Assembly: GCA_024403115.1 (NCBI GenBank)
Contig: JAKSSL010000001.1
Span: 1 to 64,000, forward strand
Length of the DNA: 64,000 bases
Source: Clostridia bacterium
GTDB taxonomy: Bacteria > Bacillota > Clostridia > Peptostreptococcales > Anaerovoracaceae
Reading direction: 5' to 3'
How positions within the stretch are numbered: position 1 is the stretch's first letter; each line of letters begins with the position of its first letter. Below the pieces are notes generated by a model that saw only the letters and a list, made by a program, of their open reading frames with translations, was not told where the DNA came from and searched no databases. Below, piece by piece: positions 7,862 to 51,115 of the stretch. The translations under genes were made by a program, and so were the position numbers.

Positions 7862-8055
7862 AAAAAGTGCATAATAGTTATCCAGCTGACCTGATCTTTG
7901 CCCCCACACCTGCCTTGACCGGGATTTTCCCGAGGACTTACTTCTAAAGCACGCCATGATCACTACCGCCCTATGCTTGTAGCTTACGTGGGACCCTTTG
8001 CCCGTGCCTGGCTTGGCCTTTCAATCACAGACCTGAATAACTACTATGCACTTTT
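7862..8055 (-). ncRNA. raiA RNA: Structured RNA, best match raiA ncRNA
   Basis: A GC-rich stretch of about 190 nt in an AT-rich background without a long open frame. A 15-bp closing stem pairs 8037-8051 with 7867-7881 (one G-U) and is followed by a U5 tract (7862-7866), so the stem doubles as a terminator. Inside are a strong hairpin CGGGA-AAA-UCCCG (7920-7932) and a CUA/AAGCA to UGCUU/UAG stem. It starts directly at the comFC stop. The known raiA motif RNA is about 200 nt and lies after comFC, before raiA/hpf, in many Clostridia, so position and size fit. A 6S RNA is the main alternative because of the long closing stem with a small 3'-side hairpin. The identification rests on context and rough folding, not on a covariance model. 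Confidence 0.65.
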
Positions 8056-8812
8056 ATTCTTCAACATCTTTATACCTGTTTGCACCAGCAGCAAAAGAAA
8101 GGAAATTCACCTTTCTAGCGCCAGCTTCCATTAAGCATTTGGCACATTCGTTTGCTGTGGCTCCTGTGGTATAAATATCATCTATAAGTAATATGTCTTT
8201 ATCTTTGATATATTCCAAATATGTAGCTTTTACCGCAAAAGCTCCTTTAAGATTATCCGCTCTGTCTCTAGCACTAATGTTTTTCTGAGCCTGAGTTTCT
8301 CTAATTCTTTCCATGGCTTCCAGACAAGGCTTTTCTACATATTTCGACAATGTTTTGCCCATCAAATAGGACTGATTGTATCCCCTGCTTTTAAGCTTTC
8401 CCCTGCTTACTGGGACAGGAACAATCACTTGAAATTCCAATGGACTTATGGCTAATTTATCAGCCATCATTCTCCCCATATCCTTTGCTATATGTTTCTT
8501 TTCATTGTATTTTAAAGCGAAAACCAGTTTTTTCTCATATAGACCATATTGGCAGACGCACAAGCCCTTATTAAACTCAGGCATTTTCTCCTGACAGAGA
8601 AGACAATACTTTCCCTGCCAATTGTCTCCAAGAGGTCTTCCACATTTGGCGCATGTCTTTCCCGTAGACCACCTAAAACTATTCATACAGTGGTCACAGA
8701 GACCGTAAACCCTGGTCTTATCTATTAAATTTCCGCAAACCGAACAATATAGCTTGGGAGGATATATGCTATCTAATATTGTATCAATAATCCTCTTCAA
8801 AAAATCTAACAA
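8054..8812 (-). CDS. comFC: ComF family protein (phosphoribosyltransferase-like)
   Basis: 252 aa with N-terminal zinc-finger pairs CxxC at residues 23/26, 39/42, 54/57 and 70/73, then a phosphoribosyltransferase fold with the PRPP loop LLIDDIYTTGAT near residues 206-217. ComFC proteins act with ComFA in uptake or handling of single-stranded DNA during transformation; no comFA is nearby. It overlaps recD2 by 29 nt, as in many Clostridia where recD2, comFC and raiA RNA are neighbours. Confidence 0.9.
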   Translation of the reverse strand: MLDFLKRIIDTILDSIYPPKLYCSVCGNLIDKTRVYGLCDHCMNSFRWSTGKTCAKCGRPLGDNWQGKYCLLCQEKMPEFNKGLCVCQYGLYEKKLVFALKYNEKKHIAKDMGRMMADKLAISPLEFQVIVPVPVSRGKLKSRGYNQSYLMGKTLSKYVEKPCLEAMERIRETQAQKNISARDRADNLKGAFAVKATYLEYIKDKDILLIDDIYTTGATANECAKCLMEAGARKVNFLSFAAGANRYKDVEE

Positions 8813-10994
8813 GTCTATACTTTAATCCCGAATACCTAGTTTTTATCCTATTGTTATCCACCATGGCTTTTACCTTATCATCAGTGCCTACAAGTACAAG
8901 CAATTCCTTTGCTCGTGTGATTGCAGTGTATATAAGGTTTCTGTTAGCTAAAATAGGTGGAAAATAGCTAATAGGCATAATTACCACAGGGAACTCGCTT
9001 CCCTGACTCTTGTGAACTGTGATGGCATAAGCCAGCTCCAGATTCTTAAGATTGCTATTATCATAAATGGCTAGCTTATCGTCGAAAACCACTTCAATGG
9101 TCTTATCCTCTAAATCTATATCACTAATGAAACCTATATCTCCATTGAATATGCCTTCGCCCTCTTCAAAGCTCCTTAAATCTCTCCAGCCCAAAGAATA
9201 GTCGTTTGTAGTTTGCATTACCTTGTCCCCAACACGGTAAATTCTATCTCCAAACTTGTATTCCTTCTTATCCTCAGCTGGTGGATTTAGCTTTTCCTGT
9301 AGAGAGACATTCAGATTATATGTACCTAAAGTTCCCCTCTTAACCGGTGTAATAATCTGCATATCCTGAAGTGGATCTTTCTCATATTTATCCTTCAAGC
9401 CCTTTGATACCAAGGTAAGAATCTTATTTAATATTTCATTTTCGCGATTTTCTCGCACAATGAAAAAGTCCTTATCCCTCTCGTTATAGAAAGGCTCTTC
9501 CCCTTTGTTGATTCTGCTTGCATTGACAATAATCAAGCTTTCCTTAGCCTGCCTGTATATTTCATCCAGCTTGTTAATGTAAACATATTCGCTATCGATA
9601 ATGTCTTTTAATACGCTACCTGGGCCTACCGATGGAAGTTGGTTAACATCTCCCACCATAATGAACTTAGTTCCCGGTTTAATTGCACTTAACAGTCCAT
9701 CCATTAAAAAGCAGTCTATCATTGATGCCTCATCAACTATAACAGCATCATAATCCAATTGATTTTCACTGTTCTTCGCAAAAATCATGGAATCAATTTC
9801 TTCATCGTAATAGTATTCCAGCAATCTGTGAATAGTGGAAGCATAGTGATCGCTGGTTTCTGCTATTCTTTTGGCTGCTCTTCCAGTGGGTGCTGCCACT
9901 GCCACTTTCATTCCTTGGCGTTCTAAAATCTTAATTATGAAATTAATTATTGTTGTCTTACCAGTACCAGGGCCACCTGTGATAACAGATACATTCCCTA
10001 GCAAAGCATTTTTGACAGCATTCTTTTGCACATCAGAAAGCTGAATATTTGACTCACTTTCGCAAAGTGCTATTACTCCATCAACATCAAAAGCCATCCT
10101 GTGATTATCGCTCTCAGATAGGCATTTTAGGTTCATGGCTATTCTTTGCTCCCCTTGGAATAGTGGGAACAGATATACAGCATCTACCCCATCAATCTTA
10201 TCTATTCTCAGTTTTCCTTCAAAAGCTAATCCGTGAATATTCTCAGCAACCCGTTCTCTGCTAAGTTCCAATAGATTTGCCACGTTTTCACAAAGCTCAG
10301 CAAAAGGCAAGTAGCAATTTCCCTCGTCAGCATAATAGTAAAGGGTATAGATTATTCCGCTTGAGATTCTTTCATCGCTTTCTCTGTCCAAACCTAACTT
10401 TTGAGCTATTCTGTCCGCTTTTACAAAACCTATTCCCGGTACATCTTCAATGATGATGTATGGATTCTCTTCCACAATATTTATGGTTTCACTGCCATAG
10501 ACCTTGTAAAGCCTGTAAGCTTCAGCGCTGGAAATATCAAAGTTCAAAAAATACAAGGCAATATCCCCATATTCTTTGTGAGCTTTATATGACTCATGAA
10601 TCTTCTCCATGGTTTTAAGGCCTATACCCTCCAGCTCTAAAAGCCTCTCCTTGTGATTTAATATAACATCCAGGGAGTCTTCGCCAAAAGCTTTAGTTAT
10701 AGCCATGGCAGTTTTATCTCCCACCCCTGATATTAAACCTGATGCAAGGAAACTCCTGATACCTTCAACATCTTTGGGCATTACAGGACTTGCTTTTTCA
10801 AATTTGAACTGTTCACCGTATTTTGGGTGATGGTAAAAATCTCCCTCAAGCTCATAGGACATGCCTTGGCGAGCGTTGGGAAGATTTCCTACTACAGTGA
10901 AGTATTCTTCAGCGGTTTCAAATATTCCTATTGTATAGCTGTTTTCTTCATTATGAAAAATCAGCTCCACTAAAGTACCGTTTTTTATTTCCAT
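8784..10994 (-). CDS. recD2: ATP-dependent 5'-3' DNA helicase RecD2
   Basis: 736-aa SF1B helicase of the RecD2/RecD-like class, for DNA repair and fork maintenance without RecBC. An N-terminal OB-like and helix-hairpin-helix part (residues about 1-200, with SGLISGVGDKTA and DVPGIGFVKADR) precedes the helicase core. Walker A is GGPGTGKT at 340-347, Walker B is VDEAS, and the C-terminal motif is AITVHKSQGSEF. It overlaps the YhaM gene upstream by one base and comFC downstream by 29 nt. Confidence 0.94.
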   Translation of the reverse strand: MEIKNGTLVELIFHNEENSYTIGIFETAEEYFTVVGNLPNARQGMSYELEGDFYHHPKYGEQFKFEKASPVMPKDVEGIRSFLASGLISGVGDKTAMAITKAFGEDSLDVILNHKERLLELEGIGLKTMEKIHESYKAHKEYGDIALYFLNFDISSAEAYRLYKVYGSETINIVEENPYIIIEDVPGIGFVKADRIAQKLGLDRESDERISSGIIYTLYYYADEGNCYLPFAELCENVANLLELSRERVAENIHGLAFEGKLRIDKIDGVDAVYLFPLFQGEQRIAMNLKCLSESDNHRMAFDVDGVIALCESESNIQLSDVQKNAVKNALLGNVSVITGGPGTGKTTIINFIIKILERQGMKVAVAAPTGRAAKRIAETSDHYASTIHRLLEYYYDEEIDSMIFAKNSENQLDYDAVIVDEASMIDCFLMDGLLSAIKPGTKFIMVGDVNQLPSVGPGSVLKDIIDSEYVYINKLDEIYRQAKESLIIVNASRINKGEEPFYNERDKDFFIVRENRENEILNKILTLVSKGLKDKYEKDPLQDMQIITPVKRGTLGTYNLNVSLQEKLNPPAEDKKEYKFGDRIYRVGDKVMQTTNDYSLGWRDLRSFEEGEGIFNGDIGFISDIDLEDKTIEVVFDDKLAIYDNSNLKNLELAYAITVHKSQGSEFPVVIMPISYFPPILANRNLIYTAITRAKELLVLVGTDDKVKAMVDNNRIKTRYSGLKYRLVRFFEEDY

Positions 10995-41165: not shown

Positions 41166-43175
41166 TTATTCTTCTACTGTTTCTTCAGCTGCTACTGGAG
41201 CTTCTTCTACAGGAGCTTCTTCAACAGTTTCTTCTGCTGGAGCTTCTTCTGGAAGAGTAGCCTTAATGCTTAAGCTAATTCTCTTCTTTTCTTCATCGAT
41301 ATCAAGAACTACTGCTTGAATTTCTTGTCCAAGTTGTAATTCATCTGAAATCTTTTCAACTCTCTTGCGAGCAACTTCTGAAATGTGAACTAGACCATCT
41401 AGTCCAGGTTCCAATTCAACGAATGCACCATATTCCTTGATTTGAACAACCTTACCAGTAATAACTTGTCCAACCTTGTAGTTGTCATTAATTACTGTCC
41501 AAGGTTCTGGCTTGATTTGCTTTAATCCTAATGAAATCTTGCCCTTTTCCTTGTTGATTGAAAGGATCTTAACTTGAACCTTTTCACCTAATTCTAAAAC
41601 TTCCTTTGGATGCTTTAACTTGCCCCATGAAATTTCTGAAATGTGAAGTAATCCATCGATACCACCGATATCAACGAAAGCGCCATAATCAGTAAATCTC
41701 ATTACTGTACCTTCTACGATATCATCAACATTAATAGCATTCCAAATAGCTTCTAATTGTTGCTTTCTTTCTTCGTTTAAGATTACCTTGTGTGAGAAGT
41801 TAACTCTGTTTCTAGTTTGATCTAACTTGATAATCTTAACTTCTAAATCCTTACCAACATATTCACCAGCGTCTTCAATGTATTTGTTTGAAAGTTGTGA
41901 TAATGGAATGTAACCGTTTACTTCCTTATAAGCTGCGATAACTCCGATATCCTTACCATCTCTTTCAACTTTTCTAACAACTGTTACTGTAATAGTTTCG
42001 TTATTTTCATTTGCCTTTGCAAGTTCATCCCAGTTTTCTAAAACTGCTAGACTCTTTGTTGAAAGTAAAATTCCACCATCTCCGTCATCAGTCTTGATAA
42101 CCTTAGCCTTGATTTCATCGCCAACCTTGAATAAATCAGTTAACTCCTTATCTCCTTCCAAAGTGATTTCTGTTTTAGGGATAATACCGTCTTTCTTACA
42201 ACCTAAGTTAACGATTACTTCCTTGTCAGTTACTTGATGTACAGTTCCGTTAACGATTTCACCTGTTCTAGGTAATCTCAATGACTTTTCGATTTCGTCC
42301 ATGAACTCCATCATTAAATTCTTTTCTTCAGTGATAATTTCACTCATTTTAGCAATAACCTCCGTAATTATACTTTCAGGCGTCGAAGCACCTGTTACGA
42401 TACCTATTTTACTATATTTCGACATTTTTTTCAAGGGAATATCATCAATATTCTCTACAAAAAAAGTATTTTCACAAGCCTTGCTAGCTATTTCATATAG
42501 TTTCTTGGTATTTGAGCTATGAGAGTCTCCCAGTACTAGCATAGCATCGCATTTTGTTGCCAGTTTTTGGCAATCTTTCTGTCGATCAGAAGTGGCATTG
42601 CAAATGGTATTTGAAAATTCAAACTTCATGTTTTTCTTTAAAAGCTCATTGTTTATTTCATCTGCCAAATCCTTCTTAATAGTTGTTTGACATACAACGA
42701 AAAGTTCCTTATCGCTTTCAAAATCGGCCAAATCCTCTGCCGAGTTAACAATAAAAGCACTGTTTTCGCACCAGCCGTTAATTCCAATAACCTCAGGATG
42801 ATTCTTATCACCTATGATGATAATCTGTTTCCCATCCTCATATGCCTTTTCAACAAGCTTATGAATCTTGGCAACGAAAGGACAAGTTGCATCCACTAAT
42901 TTAATATTGCAAGTCTTAGCTTTCTCATAGAAATCCTTAGTTTGTCCATGAGATCTGATTATGCAAGTTGCACCCTCTAAACCTTCCAGACTTTCCACAG
43001 ATTTCACACCAATATCCTCAAGCTCAGAAATAACAGCTTGATTATGAATCAATGGTCCAAAAGTATAGATAATCTCATTTTCATCCTTGGCTTCGGCAAG
43101 TTGCTCCGCTTTGCGAATAGCCTCTTTCACACCAAAACAAAATCCGATATATTTTGATTTAATTATCTCAGCCAT
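41166..43175 (-). CDS. ispH: IspH-ribosomal protein S1-type fusion
   Basis: 669 aa. Residues 1-285 are 4-hydroxy-3-methylbut-2-enyl diphosphate reductase, with the three [4Fe-4S] cysteines in GFCFGVKEA (Cys13), DATCPF and NTICNATSDRQ, and the TGASTPE motif. Residues about 300-635 hold four S1 RNA-binding repeats, and the last 30 residues are a Glu/Ala/Pro/Val acidic tail. It makes IPP/DMAPP from HMBPP and probably also binds RNA or ribosomes. The fusion is known in Clostridia. The start overlaps the rarA stop by one base. Confidence 0.95.
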   Translation of the reverse strand: MAEIIKSKYIGFCFGVKEAIRKAEQLAEAKDENEIIYTFGPLIHNQAVISELEDIGVKSVESLEGLEGATCIIRSHGQTKDFYEKAKTCNIKLVDATCPFVAKIHKLVEKAYEDGKQIIIIGDKNHPEVIGINGWCENSAFIVNSAEDLADFESDKELFVVCQTTIKKDLADEINNELLKKNMKFEFSNTICNATSDRQKDCQKLATKCDAMLVLGDSHSSNTKKLYEIASKACENTFFVENIDDIPLKKMSKYSKIGIVTGASTPESIITEVIAKMSEIITEEKNLMMEFMDEIEKSLRLPRTGEIVNGTVHQVTDKEVIVNLGCKKDGIIPKTEITLEGDKELTDLFKVGDEIKAKVIKTDDGDGGILLSTKSLAVLENWDELAKANENNETITVTVVRKVERDGKDIGVIAAYKEVNGYIPLSQLSNKYIEDAGEYVGKDLEVKIIKLDQTRNRVNFSHKVILNEERKQQLEAIWNAINVDDIVEGTVMRFTDYGAFVDIGGIDGLLHISEISWGKLKHPKEVLELGEKVQVKILSINKEKGKISLGLKQIKPEPWTVINDNYKVGQVITGKVVQIKEYGAFVELEPGLDGLVHISEVARKRVEKISDELQLGQEIQAVVLDIDEEKKRISLSIKATLPEEAPAEETVEEAPVEEAPVAAEETVEE

Positions 43176-44494: not shown

Positions 44495-44959
44495 TTACAG
44501 AAATCTAATAACTAATTGATTAATATATTTTTTCAATTCCCTGTTATCAGGATTGTTGGCTTCAATATATGATAAAACCTTGTCCATATACATAGCGCCT
44601 ACCGCTTTTGAAACGGCACGAATATCCTCAAGCATTTTACCAAAGTCCTGCTCTCCAGGATGTAAAGCTATATGTATATCCCCATAACAGTCGAAAAATA
44701 TATCATTGATGGTAAAGCAGAATTTTTTGGTGTCCAAGTACCAAAGATACATGTATTCATAAATATCATACACATCCCTTATTATCTTTAACATCTCCTT
44801 GGCATCTGGCTTATCCAGGGAAATCAAAGGCCTAAGGCCATCCATAATATAGGTGCATTCCGTTTCATTCCAACTTGATGGAACCAATTTGCACATACTG
44901 AAAAAAGCCTCTTTTTCGTACTCCTTAATTCCCTCAAAATTCTCTACAATATTTTTCAT
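44495..44959 (-). CDS. Tad-locus protein of unknown function
   Basis: 154 aa, soluble and helical, no signal or membrane segment. The central region (residues about 30-95) faintly recalls the DUF6382 proteins often encoded in clostridial Tad loci, but without their FHA domain; this resemblance is from memory and weak. The ATG at 44959 has GGAGG 5 nt upstream and follows the previous stop by one base (TGATATG). Last gene of the tad operon. Confidence 0.6.
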   Translation of the reverse strand: MKNIVENFEGIKEYEKEAFFSMCKLVPSSWNETECTYIMDGLRPLISLDKPDAKEMLKIIRDVYDIYEYMYLWYLDTKKFCFTINDIFFDCYGDIHIALHPGEQDFGKMLEDIRAVSKAVGAMYMDKVLSYIEANNPDNRELKKYINQLVIRFL

Positions 44960-44960
44960 A

Positions 44961-45737
44961 TCAACCTCCACATTTTTTGCATGCTGAAAATCCCTTTTCT
45001 ATGGCATCATCTCTGTCCATTTCTATTACATACTTATCTATGGTCTTACAGCCCTTTAAATGATATGAGCCACCATACTGAAATATGTAAACCGTATCTC
45101 CCATCCTGGCTGCACTGGCTCCGCAAATACGGCATGCATCGTATTTTCCTTTGATGGAAGCAGATAAACTTGTCTTTTTCGGGTTAGACTTTACATAAGT
45201 ACAGCTGGCCTTGTGATATCGCATCCCCGATTCTGGAAATACATACACCGCCTCATACTTTGCATTTCGCATAAACTCCGCTTCGCTAGTAGGCGTATCA
45301 CTTTGAGTGTCTCCTGTAAAAGCCCTGAGAGCTATGCTCTCTGAAAAAGTAAAGCCCTTCCCCACATCTATAATAGTATTGGTTTTAAAAGTGCAAGAAT
45401 AATCCAGCTTAATCTGTTGTTTATATAAAAGCCCTCTGTATCTATATCTATATGAGCTTATATTAAAATCACTAATGCTGTGTCCCTCATTAACTCGTTT
45501 TTTGATGGCCTTTTCAGTACTTAAATCTACGGGAGTATAAACCGACTTTGCCTGTGTCAAACTAAGTTCATCACAAATGGAATAGTTTATGCTCTCACAA
45601 ATCCCATACATTGTAGTTATGGACAACAGAATCAAGCTGCCAATTATAAACAGAGGCGCCACAATGGACGCCTCCAAAATATAGCTTCCCCGTTTGCTAT
45701 TTATAATATGCCTTTTCAATCTCATAATCCTTACCAT
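44961..45737 (-). CDS. TadE-like pilus protein with tandem putative zinc modules
   Basis: 258 aa. The N-terminus has a type IVb pilin-like leader: a basic segment, RGSYILEAS (cleavage expected after Gly17, Glu at +5) and a hydrophobic helix to about residue 42. The C-terminal 95 residues hold two repeats with identical spacing, H-x3-C-x22-C-x2-C: His175/Cys179/Cys202/Cys205 and His226/Cys230/Cys253/Cys256, each preceded by VY(V/I)F..(S/Y)G..YH. These look like small Ada-type zinc-binding modules exposed outside the cell. Either the ATG at 45737 or the one at 45725 could be the start; both ribosome sites are tight. Confidence 0.75.
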   Translation of the reverse strand: MVRIMRLKRHIINSKRGSYILEASIVAPLFIIGSLILLSITTMYGICESINYSICDELSLTQAKSVYTPVDLSTEKAIKKRVNEGHSISDFNISSYRYRYRGLLYKQQIKLDYSCTFKTNTIIDVGKGFTFSESIALRAFTGDTQSDTPTSEAEFMRNAKYEAVYVFPESGMRYHKASCTYVKSNPKKTSLSASIKGKYDACRICGASAARMGDTVYIFQYGGSYHLKGCKTIDKYVIEMDRDDAIEKGFSACKKCGG

Positions 45738-46902
45738 TCACCCTCATGGAACAATCAATCCCTACATTGTATTCTCCAATTACAAAAGCGCTGTAATACT
45801 TATACCTCATATCTATTTGAATTAAATCCATCATCCTAAGAGATAGAGTATCCGTATTTATTGCACTAATCATCAACTGCAGATATTCCGTGTAGTTGAG
45901 CCCCTTATTAACTTCTGAATCTGCCACTCCGTCTGCCTCTCCGTCTTCCAAAACGCTGGAATCCAATGCCCAAGTGTCATCACTTTTTCTTATTGGCACC
46001 TTCTTCCCCTTCTTTATTCTCTTCCAGTCGTTCTCTGCTTCTAAGCTAGCCCACAGTTCTACCAATCCAGCTCTTATAGCGGTGAAACTTGTCTCAGCTG
46101 TAGCCGCCGATAAAGTCGCTGCGATCACATCAACTGCAGCCATCTTCTCCTTATCAGACCAAAGATAGGCCGAATTCATGGCAATTCTCACCAACAAAAA
46201 TTTATCTTTGAAAGCATCCAAATTCTTTTTATCACTCATTTTGCCACTTAGTATATATTCTAATTCATTTCTAAAGTATGACCCTTTGTTAACCTTTCCG
46301 TTTGTATAGTTATTAAAATACCTTGTCGCATAAATAAGCAAATAAGACTTATTTCCCATGTTCCCCAAAACATCGGTTTTATTCTTTTCAAAGAGCGATG
46401 TAATTGCGCCGTTTGTCACATTGCCTTCACCATTGGAGGGTAAAGCTTTTATAATCTTCTGGTTGTTTATGCTTCGTTGAACAACATCGTCGCTGGTTTT
46501 CTCGCTAGAATTGAGCAATTTTGTCAACTTCAAATCCGTACAAGCGTGTTTAACTGAAGCGTTAAAGTTTTCTATTTTACCTAGGGAATACGCATTCAGC
46601 CCCACCTTGTATCCATCAAAATCCGCATAGGATTTACTACTAAAAGTACAACTTCCATAGTAGTCCAATTCCTTTTCAATCTCTTTATTAAATCCTTGGA
46701 ATGCTAGCAAATCATAACGCTTATATAAATTTCTATCAAATTCGCCTAGTATTGAATCACTCCAAATATCATTTAAAGAGCTGGCTTCACCATCAACCAA
46801 TTTGTCCCGAGCCGCCCCTATGACAGCTATTACAAAAATCATAAGAGCTATAAACATAAGGCTTAGAAAAACTGTAACCGATCCCTTCTTACTGGAAAGC
46901 AT
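45697..46902 (-). CDS. Tad-locus membrane-anchored protein (DUF5702-like / TadG-like)
   Basis: 401 aa. The N-terminus KKGSVTVFLSLMFIALMIFVIAV is a pilin-like leader plus one membrane helix, written here over two stretches: KKGSVTVFLS and the following hydrophobic run. The long extracytoplasmic part has no family I can name with certainty but matches the general layout of DUF5702 proteins of Firmicute Tad loci. Overlaps its neighbours by 14 nt upstream and 29-41 nt downstream. Confidence 0.7.
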   Translation of the reverse strand: MLSSKKGSVTVFLSLMFIALMIFVIAVIGAARDKLVDGEASSLNDIWSDSILGEFDRNLYKRYDLLAFQGFNKEIEKELDYYGSCTFSSKSYADFDGYKVGLNAYSLGKIENFNASVKHACTDLKLTKLLNSSEKTSDDVVQRSINNQKIIKALPSNGEGNVTNGAITSLFEKNKTDVLGNMGNKSYLLIYATRYFNNYTNGKVNKGSYFRNELEYILSGKMSDKKNLDAFKDKFLLVRIAMNSAYLWSDKEKMAAVDVIAATLSAATAETSFTAIRAGLVELWASLEAENDWKRIKKGKKVPIRKSDDTWALDSSVLEDGEADGVADSEVNKGLNYTEYLQLMISAINTDTLSLRMMDLIQIDMRYKYYSAFVIGEYNVGIDCSMRVNGKDYEIEKAYYK

Positions 46903-47206
46903 ATTTCAACCTCACAATTTTCGTTTTATCCATTTTATATCGTGAGCATTTCATGGTTTTTTTAATTATATTGCCTGTTAAACCTCCAAGATTTATAGAA
47001 GCAGTTTTGCTCTTTGTTACAGTGGAATATTTCATAGGTCTATCGCTTTCTGCTACCGTATTAATTATATTTTGGTGTAAAGCCACCTGCTTTTGAAAGC
47101 TGGTAAACTGAAACACTCCATATATCATCATGGAAAGAAACACTAATATAATCAAAGGCATTACCATACTAGCCTCAACGAGAGTGCTACCTTTTTTATT
47201 TAGCAA
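46889..47206 (-). CDS. TadE-like minor pseudopilin
   Basis: 105 aa. Leader KKGSTLVEASMVMPL with Gly before the cleavage site and Glu at +5, one hydrophobic helix and a short polar tail. It overlaps the pilin gene by 11 nt. Likely a minor subunit that primes or caps the Tad pilus. Confidence 0.8.
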   Translation of the reverse strand: MLNKKGSTLVEASMVMPLIILVFLSMMIYGVFQFTSFQKQVALHQNIINTVAESDRPMKYSTVTKSKTASINLGGLTGNIIKKTMKCSRYKMDKTKIVRLKYAFQ

Positions 47207-47354
47207 AATTGGCCTTCGTTAAGGTGTTAAATACACCCTCAACAAAATCTGAAATCTCGTCTTTAAAAACCAATCCTACAACTATTGCTATGGCAATGAG
47301 TATGGCCACTTGCACCATTTCCATACCCCTTTTGTTTCTCAATAAACTCTTCAT
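47196..47354 (-). CDS. Flp1-type type IVb major pilin
   Basis: 52 aa: basic leader (NKRG), then MEMVQVAILIAIAIVVGLVF and KDEISDFVEGVF, the size and pattern of Flp1 pilins in Firmicutes. Glu is at +2 and Gln at +5 after the Gly, a small departure from the usual Glu at +5. The start at 47354 follows GGGGG; a longer reading 49 codons upstream would run into the tadC coding region and is rejected. It lies 17 nt after tadC. Confidence 0.82.
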   Translation of the reverse strand: MKSLLRNKRGMEMVQVAILIAIAIVVGLVFKDEISDFVEGVFNTLTKANFAK

Positions 47355-47371
47355 ATTTCCCCCTTTATACT

Positions 47372-48388
47372 CTAATTTCCCATAAAAGCAGGCATCGCAG
47401 TTACCAGTATTAAAACCAGTAACAGCATGGCCATTGGAATAACCAGTTTGGTCTCTGCTTTCTTTCCTTCTTCTTCCGCATCTTTCTTTCGCTTCATCCA
47501 CATGAGCTCACGTTCAGCTTCAATTTTATCTAGGAGAAAAGCCCCTTTAAACTGATTTTCCACCATTATGTTCGTAATCCTTGTAAAGTCTTTTATATTT
47601 GTGTCCAAAGCAAAATTATTAATTTCAGCGATAATGTTACCACCTAGCTGATTAACATTTTCAAGACAGCTTGTCATATTTCTAGAAAAGTAATCATCCC
47701 CTTTTTCCAAACTCTTAATTGCTTTTTTTGTGGCATCCTCAAAGCTATTGCCACTTTTCCAAATCAATATGAGCATGTTCAAAAAGTTTGGTAAAGCTCT
47801 TACAAGCTCCTGCTCTGATTTTTTCTTATATTTCTTAAGATCAGCAAATCTGCTTTTATATAGAAACACAAGAACCAATAGAAATACTGCAAATACTAGA
47901 AATGCGCTGTTATCCTTCTGCTCATACCAAGTGATTCTTTTACCGTTTTCAAGCTGATTAGGCAGCCTAACCTGGCTTCCCTCATTACTCTCAATATCGC
48001 TTACAAGTCTACGCAAATAGTAATCATCATCTTTAAGAATGTTATTTGAGCTTTCCTCATCATCTTCCTGCACAAACTGCAATTCAGTGTCTTTACTGTC
48101 ATCACCGATTACAACCTTAAGCTTATACCTTTCATCGCTTCGTTCTAAAGCGGCCAGACTTCCGTCCTGATTGTAATAGACATTGCTCCCCGGCAATATT
48201 CCTTTTAACAAGATCAAAGCCATGAGCACTAGGAGAATCAAGCACAAGAATTTAGCATTCTTATAGTTCTTCTTTTCGTATTTTTCATATAACTCTTCTC
48301 CTTCTCTTCTGAAGAAGCGTTTCCCCTCTTTACGAAATTGTTCCTTATCTCCCACGAGATACTTGTAAATACTCTCTCTAAATCTCAA
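47372..48388 (-). CDS. TadC-like type II secretion F protein
   Basis: 338 aa. A cytosolic N-terminus, a helix (about 45-65), a polar extracytoplasmic segment of about 85 residues, a second helix (about 153-173), a GspF-like cytosolic domain and a C-terminal helix. The insertion of a large external segment before the F domain is longer than in a minimal TadC. It overlaps tadB by 11 nt. Confidence 0.82.
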   Translation of the reverse strand: MRFRESIYKYLVGDKEQFRKEGKRFFRREGEELYEKYEKKNYKNAKFLCLILLVLMALILLKGILPGSNVYYNQDGSLAALERSDERYKLKVVIGDDSKDTELQFVQEDDEESSNNILKDDDYYLRRLVSDIESNEGSQVRLPNQLENGKRITWYEQKDNSAFLVFAVFLLVLVFLYKSRFADLKKYKKKSEQELVRALPNFLNMLILIWKSGNSFEDATKKAIKSLEKGDDYFSRNMTSCLENVNQLGGNIIAEINNFALDTNIKDFTRITNIMVENQFKGAFLLDKIEAERELMWMKRKKDAEEEGKKAETKLVIPMAMLLLVLILVTAMPAFMGN

Positions 48389-49118
48389 CTCTACATATCC
48401 TTTCTACCAGATATAAAGATACAATTGTTACCCCTATGCACAAGCTCATAATCAATATCCCTGTTAGGTTGTTGTAAAGAACCGCTATATAGTCTGGCGA
48501 AGACAATTTCAAAAAAGCTACTATCAAAAAGGGCATAATTCCAATAATTCTTCCCTCCGTTTTTCTCTGTGATGTGGCCAATCTTATATTGTTTTCTATT
48601 TCGATTTTGTCGCTTATAATTTTGGCTGCGCCATCCACTGCACTGACTATATTGCCCCCTGTCTCCTTGCAGTTCTTGTAAACCTTGGCAAAATCGCAAA
48701 TGTCCTCAAGGCCACTGCGTTCGCCCAGATTTTCCAAAAGCACATAATCCAAATCATTAGCCTCTTCAATACTGTTATCAATAGCTTCAAGTTCCCTCAC
48801 CATAAGAGAATCTAGACCATAAACCTGTCTCAATCCATTTAAGGATTCTTTAATTGCTTTGCTCATATTTCGACCCAAAGCAAAGGATGATGAAATCAGA
48901 TACAGAAAATCCTTAAACTCCATTAGCAATTGATTCCTACGCTTTTCTATTAGCAGTTTCTTGTAATATCTCTCGCCAAATATAATTAAAGGAAGGAATA
49001 TTACCAAAGCAATGATACTATCATACATTAGCCAGGATATAGCAAGAGCTACCAATAGCATAAGACCGTAATATTTCAATCGTTCTTCTCTACTGAATTT
49101 GTAATCATTGTAATCCAT
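48378..49118 (-). CDS. TadB-like type II secretion F protein
   Basis: 246 aa. Two N-terminal helices (about 16-50), a GspF-type helical cytosolic domain (FKDFLYLISSSFALGRNMSK region onward) and two C-terminal helices. Forms the inner-membrane platform with TadC. Overlaps the TadA gene by 14 nt. Confidence 0.85.
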   Translation of the reverse strand: MDYNDYKFSREERLKYYGLMLLVALAISWLMYDSIIALVIFLPLIIFGERYYKKLLIEKRRNQLLMEFKDFLYLISSSFALGRNMSKAIKESLNGLRQVYGLDSLMVRELEAIDNSIEEANDLDYVLLENLGERSGLEDICDFAKVYKNCKETGGNIVSAVDGAAKIISDKIEIENNIRLATSQRKTEGRIIGIMPFLIVAFLKLSSPDYIAVLYNNLTGILIMSLCIGVTIVSLYLVERICRVEI

Positions 49119-50274
49119 GAAGTTTAAGCTTATCCTCCTTTACTAGTTTGTTACCACTCTTTACAAGTTCGCCACATTCATTTAGCTGAAAAAGATTATT
49201 TATAATGTATTTTCCATCGATATAATCCACTATTTCGCTTATCTCCATTACTATTCTTCTTCCGTTGGAGAGCCTGCCCAAATGCACCATAAGGTCAATG
49301 CCTTCAATTATTTGGCCTGCAATAGCATCCACACTTAGATCACTGCCCATTAAGTACATTGATTCCAATCTTCTAAGCATTCCTCTCACCGAATTTCCAT
49401 GGCCCGTTGACAAGGAACCATCATGGCCAGTATTTAAAGCTGAAAGCAAATCGCTAACTTCCTTTCCTCTTACCTCACCGATTATTATTCTGTCAGGTCT
49501 CATTCTCAAGCTGGTTTTAATCAAATCCGCCATATCAATTTTGCCCTTACCCATGGAATTTGAATTTCTACACTCCATGTGCACAATATTTTCAATAGCA
49601 TTTAATTCCAACTCAGCCGAATCCTCTATTACGATGACCCTGTCAGTTTCTGGTATGTATCCTGCCAAAGCATTTAGAAAAGTTGTCTTTCCCGATGAAG
49701 TACCTCCGCTTATAAAGATGTTGTACGATGCCTGTACCATCTCCTTCAAAAAGTCAGCCGCCTCCCTGCTAATACTTCCAAATTCAACCAATTTGTCCAT
49801 TGTTATAATGTTCTGTTTGAACTTTCTTATGGTTAAAATGGGTCCGTTTAAAGCTATATTCTTGTAGACGCCATTAATACGAGAACCGTCGTTCAAACGG
49901 GCGTCCACAATGGGATTCATTTCGTTAATTTCACGATTAACACCTGACGCTATATACCTAATAATCTCCTCAAGTTCCTCAGTGGTATCGAAATTAAGGT
50001 CCAATTTTTCCACAACACCATTTCTTTCAACAAAGATATCGTCTTTACCATTTACCATGATTTCACTTATGGTAGGATCTTTGATTATATCCTCCATAAT
50101 CCCCAACTTCTTTCTGGTCTTGGTGAAATATTTATTTGAAAGTTTTTCAATTTCATCCAAGTCCTTATCCGTTGAATCAATAAAATATTTTTCTATTAGT
50201 TCATAAGCTTCATCATCGCCTATATGACCGCAACTACCCAATATCTCCCTGATGTTTGTTAAATCTTGATCCAT
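49105..50274 (-). CDS. tadA: TadA/CpaF pilus assembly ATPase
   Basis: 389-aa secretion ATPase of the CpaF/VirB11 type. Walker A GGTSSGKT (about 190-197), Walker B region RPDRIIIGEVRG, His box STGHGNS and arginine fingers RLNDGSR. The ATG at 50274 follows GGAGGAG by 5 nt; an in-frame ATG 15 codons upstream has no such site. It powers polymerisation of the Flp pilin. Overlaps the TadZ-like gene by 41 nt. Confidence 0.93.
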   Translation of the reverse strand: MDQDLTNIREILGSCGHIGDDEAYELIEKYFIDSTDKDLDEIEKLSNKYFTKTRKKLGIMEDIIKDPTISEIMVNGKDDIFVERNGVVEKLDLNFDTTEELEEIIRYIASGVNREINEMNPIVDARLNDGSRINGVYKNIALNGPILTIRKFKQNIITMDKLVEFGSISREAADFLKEMVQASYNIFISGGTSSGKTTFLNALAGYIPETDRVIVIEDSAELELNAIENIVHMECRNSNSMGKGKIDMADLIKTSLRMRPDRIIIGEVRGKEVSDLLSALNTGHDGSLSTGHGNSVRGMLRRLESMYLMGSDLSVDAIAGQIIEGIDLMVHLGRLSNGRRIVMEISEIVDYIDGKYIINNLFQLNECGELVKSGNKLVKEDKLKLHGLQ

Positions 50275-51115
50275 CAATCTCCTCCAATAAATACCCCAAT
50301 TCCTTACTGAACTGTCCAAAAGTGTCTAAATCAATCTTGCCCCTTTTCTCGTTGTAAACAAAATCCTCTTCATGCATTGATATTCCTTCTTGAGCAAAAT
50401 TTCTTATCTGATGTTCTTCTTCAAAAACAGCTTCCGTAAACTCATCATTGATAACCCTGATTTTATAATCTACGTTCTCTAAGAAATCCTCATTGGCCTC
50501 TTTGCCCATATCGAAAACGATAGCCTCGAAGAAAGCCTTTTTCTCAAGATAATTTAAAATCAAATTCATGTCCCTAATATTGCTAAAAGCATTCCTTGGT
50601 CCCAATTTCAAATAATATGCCGACCCGTACATTCCCAAATAGGAAAAGAAATCAAAATCCTCTCCCTTCCTTAGTTTTGCACACAAATTACGACCATCTT
50701 CTCCCAATTCCAAATACTTATTAGCCGAGTTGTAAGTCTCAAGGTTAATGTACAAACTTTTTCGATTATTGTCCCCCAACTGCCTTGCCCATTCCAACGC
50801 GATTGCCGTGGTTCCAGAACCACCATCGCGGGAATAGAAGCCATAGGTTTCAATGTTCTCATAGCTTTTCTTAAGCAGATACTTACCATAGTTTAAATAA
50901 TAGATTTTATCTATGGCCTGAGAGAACTCATCCAAGGGCGCATACAGGGGAATTGCCAGTTTACTATCCCTTAAACTAATACTAATCTCCTCGCCACCTG
51001 CTATTTTTAGCTCATTCCCTGAAAAATCGAGAAAAGGAAAAATGTTGATTAAGCCTTCTTGAACAGCTTTTTCAAATTCCTTATCAGCTAAATCAATGTT
51101 CACTCCAAGTCTCAT
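50234..51115 (-). CDS. TadZ/CpaE-like protein with degenerate P-loop
   Basis: 293 aa, first gene of the tad operon. An N-terminal receiver-like half (1-85) precedes a MinD/ParA-like half starting YGFYSRDGGSGTTA (residues 91-104), where the deviant Walker A lacks both lysines. TadZ proteins localise Tad pili and often have atypical P-loops. AGGAGG precedes the ATG by 9 nt. Assignment rests on position and the degenerate motif. Confidence 0.72.
   Translation of the reverse strand: MRLGVNIDLADKEFEKAVQEGLINIFPFLDFSGNELKIAGGEEISISLRDSKLAIPLYAPLDEFSQAIDKIYYLNYGKYLLKKSYENIETYGFYSRDGGSGTTAIALEWARQLGDNNRKSLYINLETYNSANKYLELGEDGRNLCAKLRKGEDFDFFSYLGMYGSAYYLKLGPRNAFSNIRDMNLILNYLEKKAFFEAIVFDMGKEANEDFLENVDYKIRVINDEFTEAVFEEEHQIRNFAQEGISMHEEDFVYNEKRGKIDLDTFGQFSKELGYLLEEIDGSRFNKHQGDIG

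Follow-up and report, generated by a model that had tools for sequence, protein, structure and literature searches.

A TadE-like pilin with twin Ada-related, probable zinc modules in clostridial Tad loci

The Tad operon and its last pilin gene

The gene at 44961..45737 on the reverse strand (-) of the window, the whole 64,000-nucleotide stretch of DNA that was analysed, comes after a Tad operon that is read in the same direction. Its product is a TadE-like minor pilin of 258 aa (stop included) with putative zinc modules, and is labelled Zn-TadE here. The first-pass annotation gave the coordinates of this reading frame correctly, with the strand (-) absent, and its description of a normal class III leader followed by a helix holds. 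The leader, recognised from the sequence and from the invariance of Gly17 and Glu22, takes up residues 1-17 (45687..45737, -) and ends in KRG; at the KRG/SYILE junction the mature N-terminus is SYILE, with Gly17 at -1, Glu22 at +5 and a hydrophobic helix next, the helix of the predicted structure spanning residues 15-64. Gly17 is invariant in an alignment of 41 sequences and Glu22 in one of 57 sequences. The C-terminal third consists of two H-x3-C-x22-C-x2-C modules, module 1 at residues 164-208 (45114..45248, -) with H175, C179, C202 and C205, and module 2 at residues 213-258 (44964..45101, -) with H226, C230, C253 and C256. The full set of cysteines is 47, 55, 115, 179, 202, 205, 230, 253 and 256, and that of histidines is 10, 86, 175 and 226.

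The whole protein has no significant match in Pfam, NCBIfam or the PDB sequences and falls below the Pfam cut-off for TadE (PF07811, 22.9 bits), which two of its homologues exceed (L034 with 29.2 and L127 with 30.2 bits). The AlphaFold model of the whole protein has a pLDDT of 87.7 and a pTM of 0.62, and a Foldseek search with this full model gave nothing at E<=0.001. With VIA the pilin part alone resembled pantothenate synthetase and phage gp25-type folds (Z near 8), which were set aside as common arrangements.

Adjoining Zn-TadE, both here and in the loci examined, is the gene of a DUF5702 pilin-like protein of 401 aa (45697..46902, -), assigned by PF18960 (E 9e-51) and synteny. Its leader, KKGS-VTVF, has Phe rather than Glu at +5, and its homologues have a leader of the GSxxVF type with Phe or Tyr at +5 in most readable members. 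Further genes on the same strand (-) encode a small TadE-type minor pilin of 105 aa with Glu at +5 (46889..47206; called from its sequence, with PF07811 at 16.9 bits, under the cut-off), a Flp1-like major pilin (47196..47501; PF16982 above cut-off) whose true start is probably within the reading frame, at MKSLLRNKRG, a TadC-like platform protein (47372..48388; a weak T2SSF match, position and synteny) and a TadB-like platform protein (48378..49118; T2SSF weak and below cut-off, synteny). No T2SSE-family ATPase of the genome is over the cut-off other than the TadA motor ATPase (49105..50319, -; PF00437, E 4.5e-50). Upstream of tadA lies a probable TadZ-like protein (50234..51115, -), which has weak homologues at two loci and no significant Pfam match. 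The order tadA, tadB, tadC, flp, (small tadE), DUF5702, Zn-TadE is found in most loci that are long enough, and there is one prepilin peptidase gene (Peptidase_A24) in the genome.

Directly downstream of Zn-TadE, and overlapping it by 11 bases, is a reading frame of 158 aa (44495-44971, -) that belongs to no Pfam or NCBIfam family and has no homologue beside Zn-TadE at the other loci compared. Further on, a gene at 41166-43175 (-) encodes IspH (LytB) fused to four S1 domains, next to rarA/mgsA; in relatives this fusion and rarA/mgsA often lie downstream of the Tad locus.

The twin modules and their relationship to Ada

The two repeats have the same His/Cys spacing, and the residue numbers given for them in the first-pass annotation are exact. 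When Zn-TadE was shuffled 200,000 times with its composition preserved, one H-x3-C-x22-C-x2-C appeared in 22 of the shuffles and two appeared in none. None of the eight His/Cys varies among 41 homologues of related genomes, which are 23-42% identical to the window protein, a set of full-length protein matches assembled with no Cys filter and with shorter single-module matches left out. They are also invariant in 57 homologues of 19-35% identity, distant Lachnospiraceae among them, a set chosen for having two modules, so that invariance is here partly by selection; the 12 invariant columns of this alignment are Glu22, Pro28, Gly142, Val164 and the eight His/Cys. Two overlapping collections together hold 121 two-module sequences (106 distinct tails), in 90 of which the spacing is 3/22 for each module, with most of the others having the 4/28 and 4/20 spacing of the Lachnospiraceae type. 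Exceptions are L050, which is without the first His-Cys pair, and L117, which has lost the last part of module 2.

Seven shorter homologues (L044, L046 and L051-L055) have a single module, each with a complete H-C-C-C set. Because they keep all four ligands, H-x3-C and C-x2-C together form the unit, with each module having its own site. Single modules also end shorter TadE-type pilins of other families (L151, L158, L159, L163, L165, L188 and L198), several of which share a YHxxxCxHLRxSK signature with secreted nucleases.

Besides the ligands, the conserved positions are of core types, namely G, P, V, an aromatic before the His, A and Y. The position five after the Cys of module 2 is Lys or Arg in 118 of the 121 two-module sequences, and the net charge of both modules has a mean of +3.4 and a range of -8 to +15, with +6 in the window protein. 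The charge is thus mildly basic and widely variable, which is not typical of a surface dedicated to binding DNA.

Profile comparisons show homology between the two modules (hhalign probability 98.9) and, by way of intermediates, with the Ada zinc domain PF02805. Module 1 matches the modules of secreted proteins with an hhalign probability of 98.8 and module 2 with one of 99.1; the secreted-module set in turn reaches 98.3 against true Ada. Module 2 gives 97.0 against intermediate PF02805 members (a set without L205, which is a true Ada) and 91.9 against true Ada; module 1 is weaker, with 86.4 and 55.2 respectively. In column-permuted controls that kept Cys and His in place, 0 of 60 reached the observed hhalign score in each comparison. 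PF02805 (Ada_Zn_binding) itself matches 36 of 64 domain sequences, the best at 3e-8; the window domain scores 12.3 bits, under the curated cut-off of 23 bits, and homologue L100 scores 30.1. A single-module profile run against the PDB sequences matched four Ada entries alone, weakly (E 0.18-0.32).

The AlphaFold model of the tail (pLDDT 85.4, pTM 0.57) has a similar order of strands and helices in both halves. Two outcomes had been named beforehand as telling against the module idea, Cys and His scattered in the model and their free loss in homologues; the model instead predicts two like-folded units, and free loss did not occur among the 57 homologues. In structure comparison of the domain model (Foldseek/VIA), RING-H2 7bvw and N-Ada 1wpk came out best, both weakly at Z 3.3.

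With the N-terminal zinc domain of Ada (PF02805, N-Ada10, PDB 1adn/1wpk) the modules share the four-ligand x3/x2 pattern, an aromatic before the first ligand, a helix with 'eA..Gy.PC..C' and a profile similarity that extends beyond Cys/His. They differ in being exported, C-terminal and tandem, and in the residues that serve Ada as methyl acceptor and base contacts, which are Cys38, Arg45 and Arg71 (PMC4437013). The position of the methyl-accepting Cys38 is His in 121/121 two-module sequences, in both modules, and Arg45 is lost to V, I or L; the modules are therefore Ada-like yet incapable of the repair chemistry of Ada. The Arg71 position is L or I in module 1 and K or R in 82 of the 121 sequences in module 2.

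Distribution of the pilin and of its module

A Zn-TadE homologue is present in 56 of 99 related genomes, nearly all genomes of the same family carrying one, together with a small number from a second family of the order. A wider search, using the profile of a six-sequence alignment and one genome per species for 84,980 species, gave 79 loci in Clostridiales Family XIII (Anaerovoracaceae), Lachnospiraceae, Vallitaleaceae, Tissierellales and others; no relative was found in the viral contigs searched. The first-pass annotation had proposed a survey of Tad loci for the C-terminal repeat and had thought zinc modules on a Tad pilin unusual. The repeat is found across Anaerovoracaceae, Lachnospiraceae and related Clostridia, and in one sense such a protein is not unusual, being the standard last pilin of Tad loci in much of Clostridia. 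In open-access text no report of zinc modules on Tad pilins was found.

The same module is found on proteins other than pilins. Among 39 classified non-pilin carriers, which were drawn from order samples, phylum samples and the first homologue matches and counted by the author of the report, there are 19 with a metallo-beta-lactamase (MBL) fold, 8 with SNase and 4 with endonuclease NS, the remainder being 2 with wall-binding repeats (choline-binding or CWB2), 2 peptidases and 4 without an informative partner. Nucleases or ComEC-type hydrolases thus make up 31 of the 39, with the ComEC C-terminal domain as best match in the four MBL carriers tested. One such protein is encoded in the genome of the window itself (L139:1498-2553, contig C47); it is a secreted MBL-fold protein with one His-Cys3 module at its C-terminal end, preceded by a Ser/Thr linker, and its best NCBIfam match is again the ComEC C-terminal domain. 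No Pfam entry of its own was found for the secreted-protein module, part of which is caught by PF02805.

Mobile and almost always at the C-terminus, the module forms a tail on exported-looking proteins, mostly nucleases and ComEC-type hydrolases. The earlier suggestion of a likeness to Ada-type zinc modules that end secreted nucleases is thus borne out by both the profiles and the census of partner domains. Zn-TadE has the profile (98.8-99.1) and the C-terminal position in common with the module of the Bacillota secreted SNase, endonuclease NS and ComEC-type MBL proteins, which differ in usually having one copy behind a linker on an enzyme, where Zn-TadE has twin copies on a pilin.

Placement, possible ligands and known systems

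It is proposed that Zn-TadE is built from an N-terminal pilin part (leader, long helix and a small helix-plus-sheet domain), a linker and two tandem Ada-type zinc modules, with one His-Cys3 metal site in each. The modules very probably bind zinc, for which, over disulfides, the invariant His and the anaerobic host speak; the sites would hold small heads stable without disulfides in an anaerobe. Zn-TadE, the small TadE and the DUF5702 protein most likely make up the priming/tip complex of the Tad (type IVc) pilus, and since Zn-TadE would sit in that complex its two zinc modules would be displayed at the distal end. Tip-capping pseudopilins without Glu5 are known from other type IV filament systems, and because Glu5 is likewise missing from the DUF5702 protein this is perhaps the distal cap, with Zn-TadE as its partner; a GspK/TadG-like cap is thus its possible role in clostridial Tad pili. 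A location of Zn-TadE at the pilus tip appears likely from analogy, from its operon position and from the invariant pilin features. In Myxococcus, TadE/F/G-type minor pilins have been described as forming tip complexes whose ends are customised (PMC12075869), and such complexes are proposed for Caulobacter (PMC12607857), and the display of a grafted, metal-bearing adhesive module by modular pilins is established in Streptococcus sanguinis (PMC8179133).

With the tandem modules, their full conservation, their homology both with Ada and with the modules of secreted nucleases, and the operon position all apparent from computation, Zn-TadE is on balance best regarded as a modular tip pilin that bears zinc and whose head binds a ligand of one kind or another. 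The surface of the modules would bind it, and the likeliest single class of ligand is a nucleic acid or other polyanion, although we hold this only tentatively. In favour of a nucleic acid are the partners of the module, the relationship to Ada, the Lys/Arg after the Cys of module 2 and the content of the genome.

In the more specific version of this mechanism DNA would be caught for uptake by ComEA/ComEC, and it is plausible that Zn-TadE pili capture DNA. Micrococcus luteus and Liberibacter crescens are known to take up DNA in a Tad-dependent manner (PMC6668835, PMC8513845). The genome of the window (1.08 Mb, 97% complete) has ComEC, a ComEA-like SLBB-HHH protein and comFC, and in it no motor ATPase of a Com or T4a pilus was found. 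ComEA and ComEC without such an ATPase are a better, if circumstantial, support for DNA capture than comFC and recD2, which the first-pass annotation had invoked. These two genes, at 8054-10994, are some 34 kb away among housekeeping genes and carry no weight, so that of its interpretation the likeness to Ada and nucleases stands and the argument from comFC/recD2 does not. The comFC-like gene (8054-8812, -), beside recD2 and unrelated to the Tad locus, has a double zinc ribbon (DZR_2) of its own.

Within the same family a PilB-type ATPase, as the author read matches of E<1e-70, is present in 12 of 53 genomes with Zn-TadE and in 6 of 7 without it (Fisher p 0.002); these counts, which are small, phylogenetically confounded and taken from incomplete genomes, hint at alternative filament systems. 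Against DNA capture are the variable net charge, the lost base contacts of Ada, the wall-binding partners and the near-universal ComEC, which is present in 94 of 99 relatives and for that reason is neither proof of competence nor a test of DNA uptake. That the Tad pili of much of Clostridia are DNA-uptake pili, with the Ada-like twin modules at the tip as a DNA receptor that replaces the Com pilus where it is missing, is doubtful, as is the part of the same proposal in which the receptor modules are drawn from a pool shared with secreted nucleases.

The head may instead be an adhesin, its zinc modules binding a cell-wall polymer, mucin or another surface ligand, with the link to nucleases merely reflecting a general docking or cell-wall-retention tag of exported proteins. 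Tad pili are chiefly adhesive and the modular pilins PilB and PilC are adhesins (PMC8179133, PMC9934059). The module also ends peptidases and proteins with choline-binding or CWB2 repeats, and its place as a tail of exported-looking proteins would suit such a tag. However, nucleases and ComEC-type hydrolases predominate among the classified partners and the wall-binding partners already own wall-binding repeats, leaving adhesion a real possibility that stops short of being probable.

A purely structural role, in which the modules are rigid, disulfide-free spacers or make assembly contacts with the DUF5702 protein and the small TadE, and have no ligand outside the pilus, would fit the core character of the conserved positions, and retention throughout the family beside DUF5702 would suit a contact inside the tip. 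Disulfides are commonly avoided by anaerobic Gram-positives, which is also in keeping with such spacers. Yet related short forms carry one module, the module ends unrelated secreted enzymes in which contact with a pilin is impossible, and the Lys/Arg of module 2 is kept almost throughout, which makes a solely structural role rather unlikely.

In a RING-, PHD- or FYVE-like cross-brace, ligand pairs 1+3 and 2+4 would form interleaved sites and the tail would be one domain. RING-H2 7bvw was indeed ranked on model residues 31-81 (rmsd 2.6, 48 aligned), and the profile weakly matches the Pygopus PHD (E 0.009), but N-Ada equals RING-H2 in Z, the halves are homologous along their length with the same strand and helix order, and single-module relatives and secreted enzymes keep 1+2 or 3+4 as one complete site; the cross-brace was rejected on the single-module homologues and is very improbable. 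Zinc scavenging or redox sensing, by which modules of no fixed fold would buffer zinc or sense oxidants, can appeal to the zinc exchange that exported Cys-rich sites could in principle perform, and is scarcely credible, given that the spacing is fixed, the His is invariant, the core is conserved and the modules are homologous to a zinc fold that is structural.

A zinc-bearing tip pilin with a ligand-binding head would be of interest because, as far as found, no ligand has been reported for a clostridial Tad pilus, and the head of Zn-TadE is a testable candidate for binding one, possibly DNA. Descriptions of the Tad pilus tip are recent and come from Gram-negative models, and the head is a conserved, small and expressible domain with defined metal ligands. 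It belongs to an apparently undescribed exported, putative zinc module common to pilins, nucleases and ComEC-type hydrolases, and is a candidate for the DNA receptor of bacteria in which ComEA/ComEC occur without a Com pilus motor.

Amongst known systems, the TadE/TadF/TadG proteins, the Kil tip complexes (PMC12075869) and CpaJKL of Caulobacter (PMC12607857) are likewise minor pilins encoded beside the tad core genes, one member having an extra distal domain. Tips of the Kil/CpaJKL type carry vWA or other domains, whereas Zn-TadE has putative zinc modules instead, and in these Clostridia DUF5702 is found in the place that TadG has elsewhere. PilB and PilC of Streptococcus sanguinis (PMC8179133) similarly bear a functional module on a pilin by way of a short linker, that of PilB being metal-bearing, and differ in belonging to a type IVa pilus and in having vWA or lectin modules. 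The published survey of modular pilins used IPR012902; Tad pilins probably fall outside a survey on that basis, so that Zn-TadE would have gone uncounted. The twin-module pilin, ordinary within Clostridia, is apparently an undescribed variant of the modular pilin.
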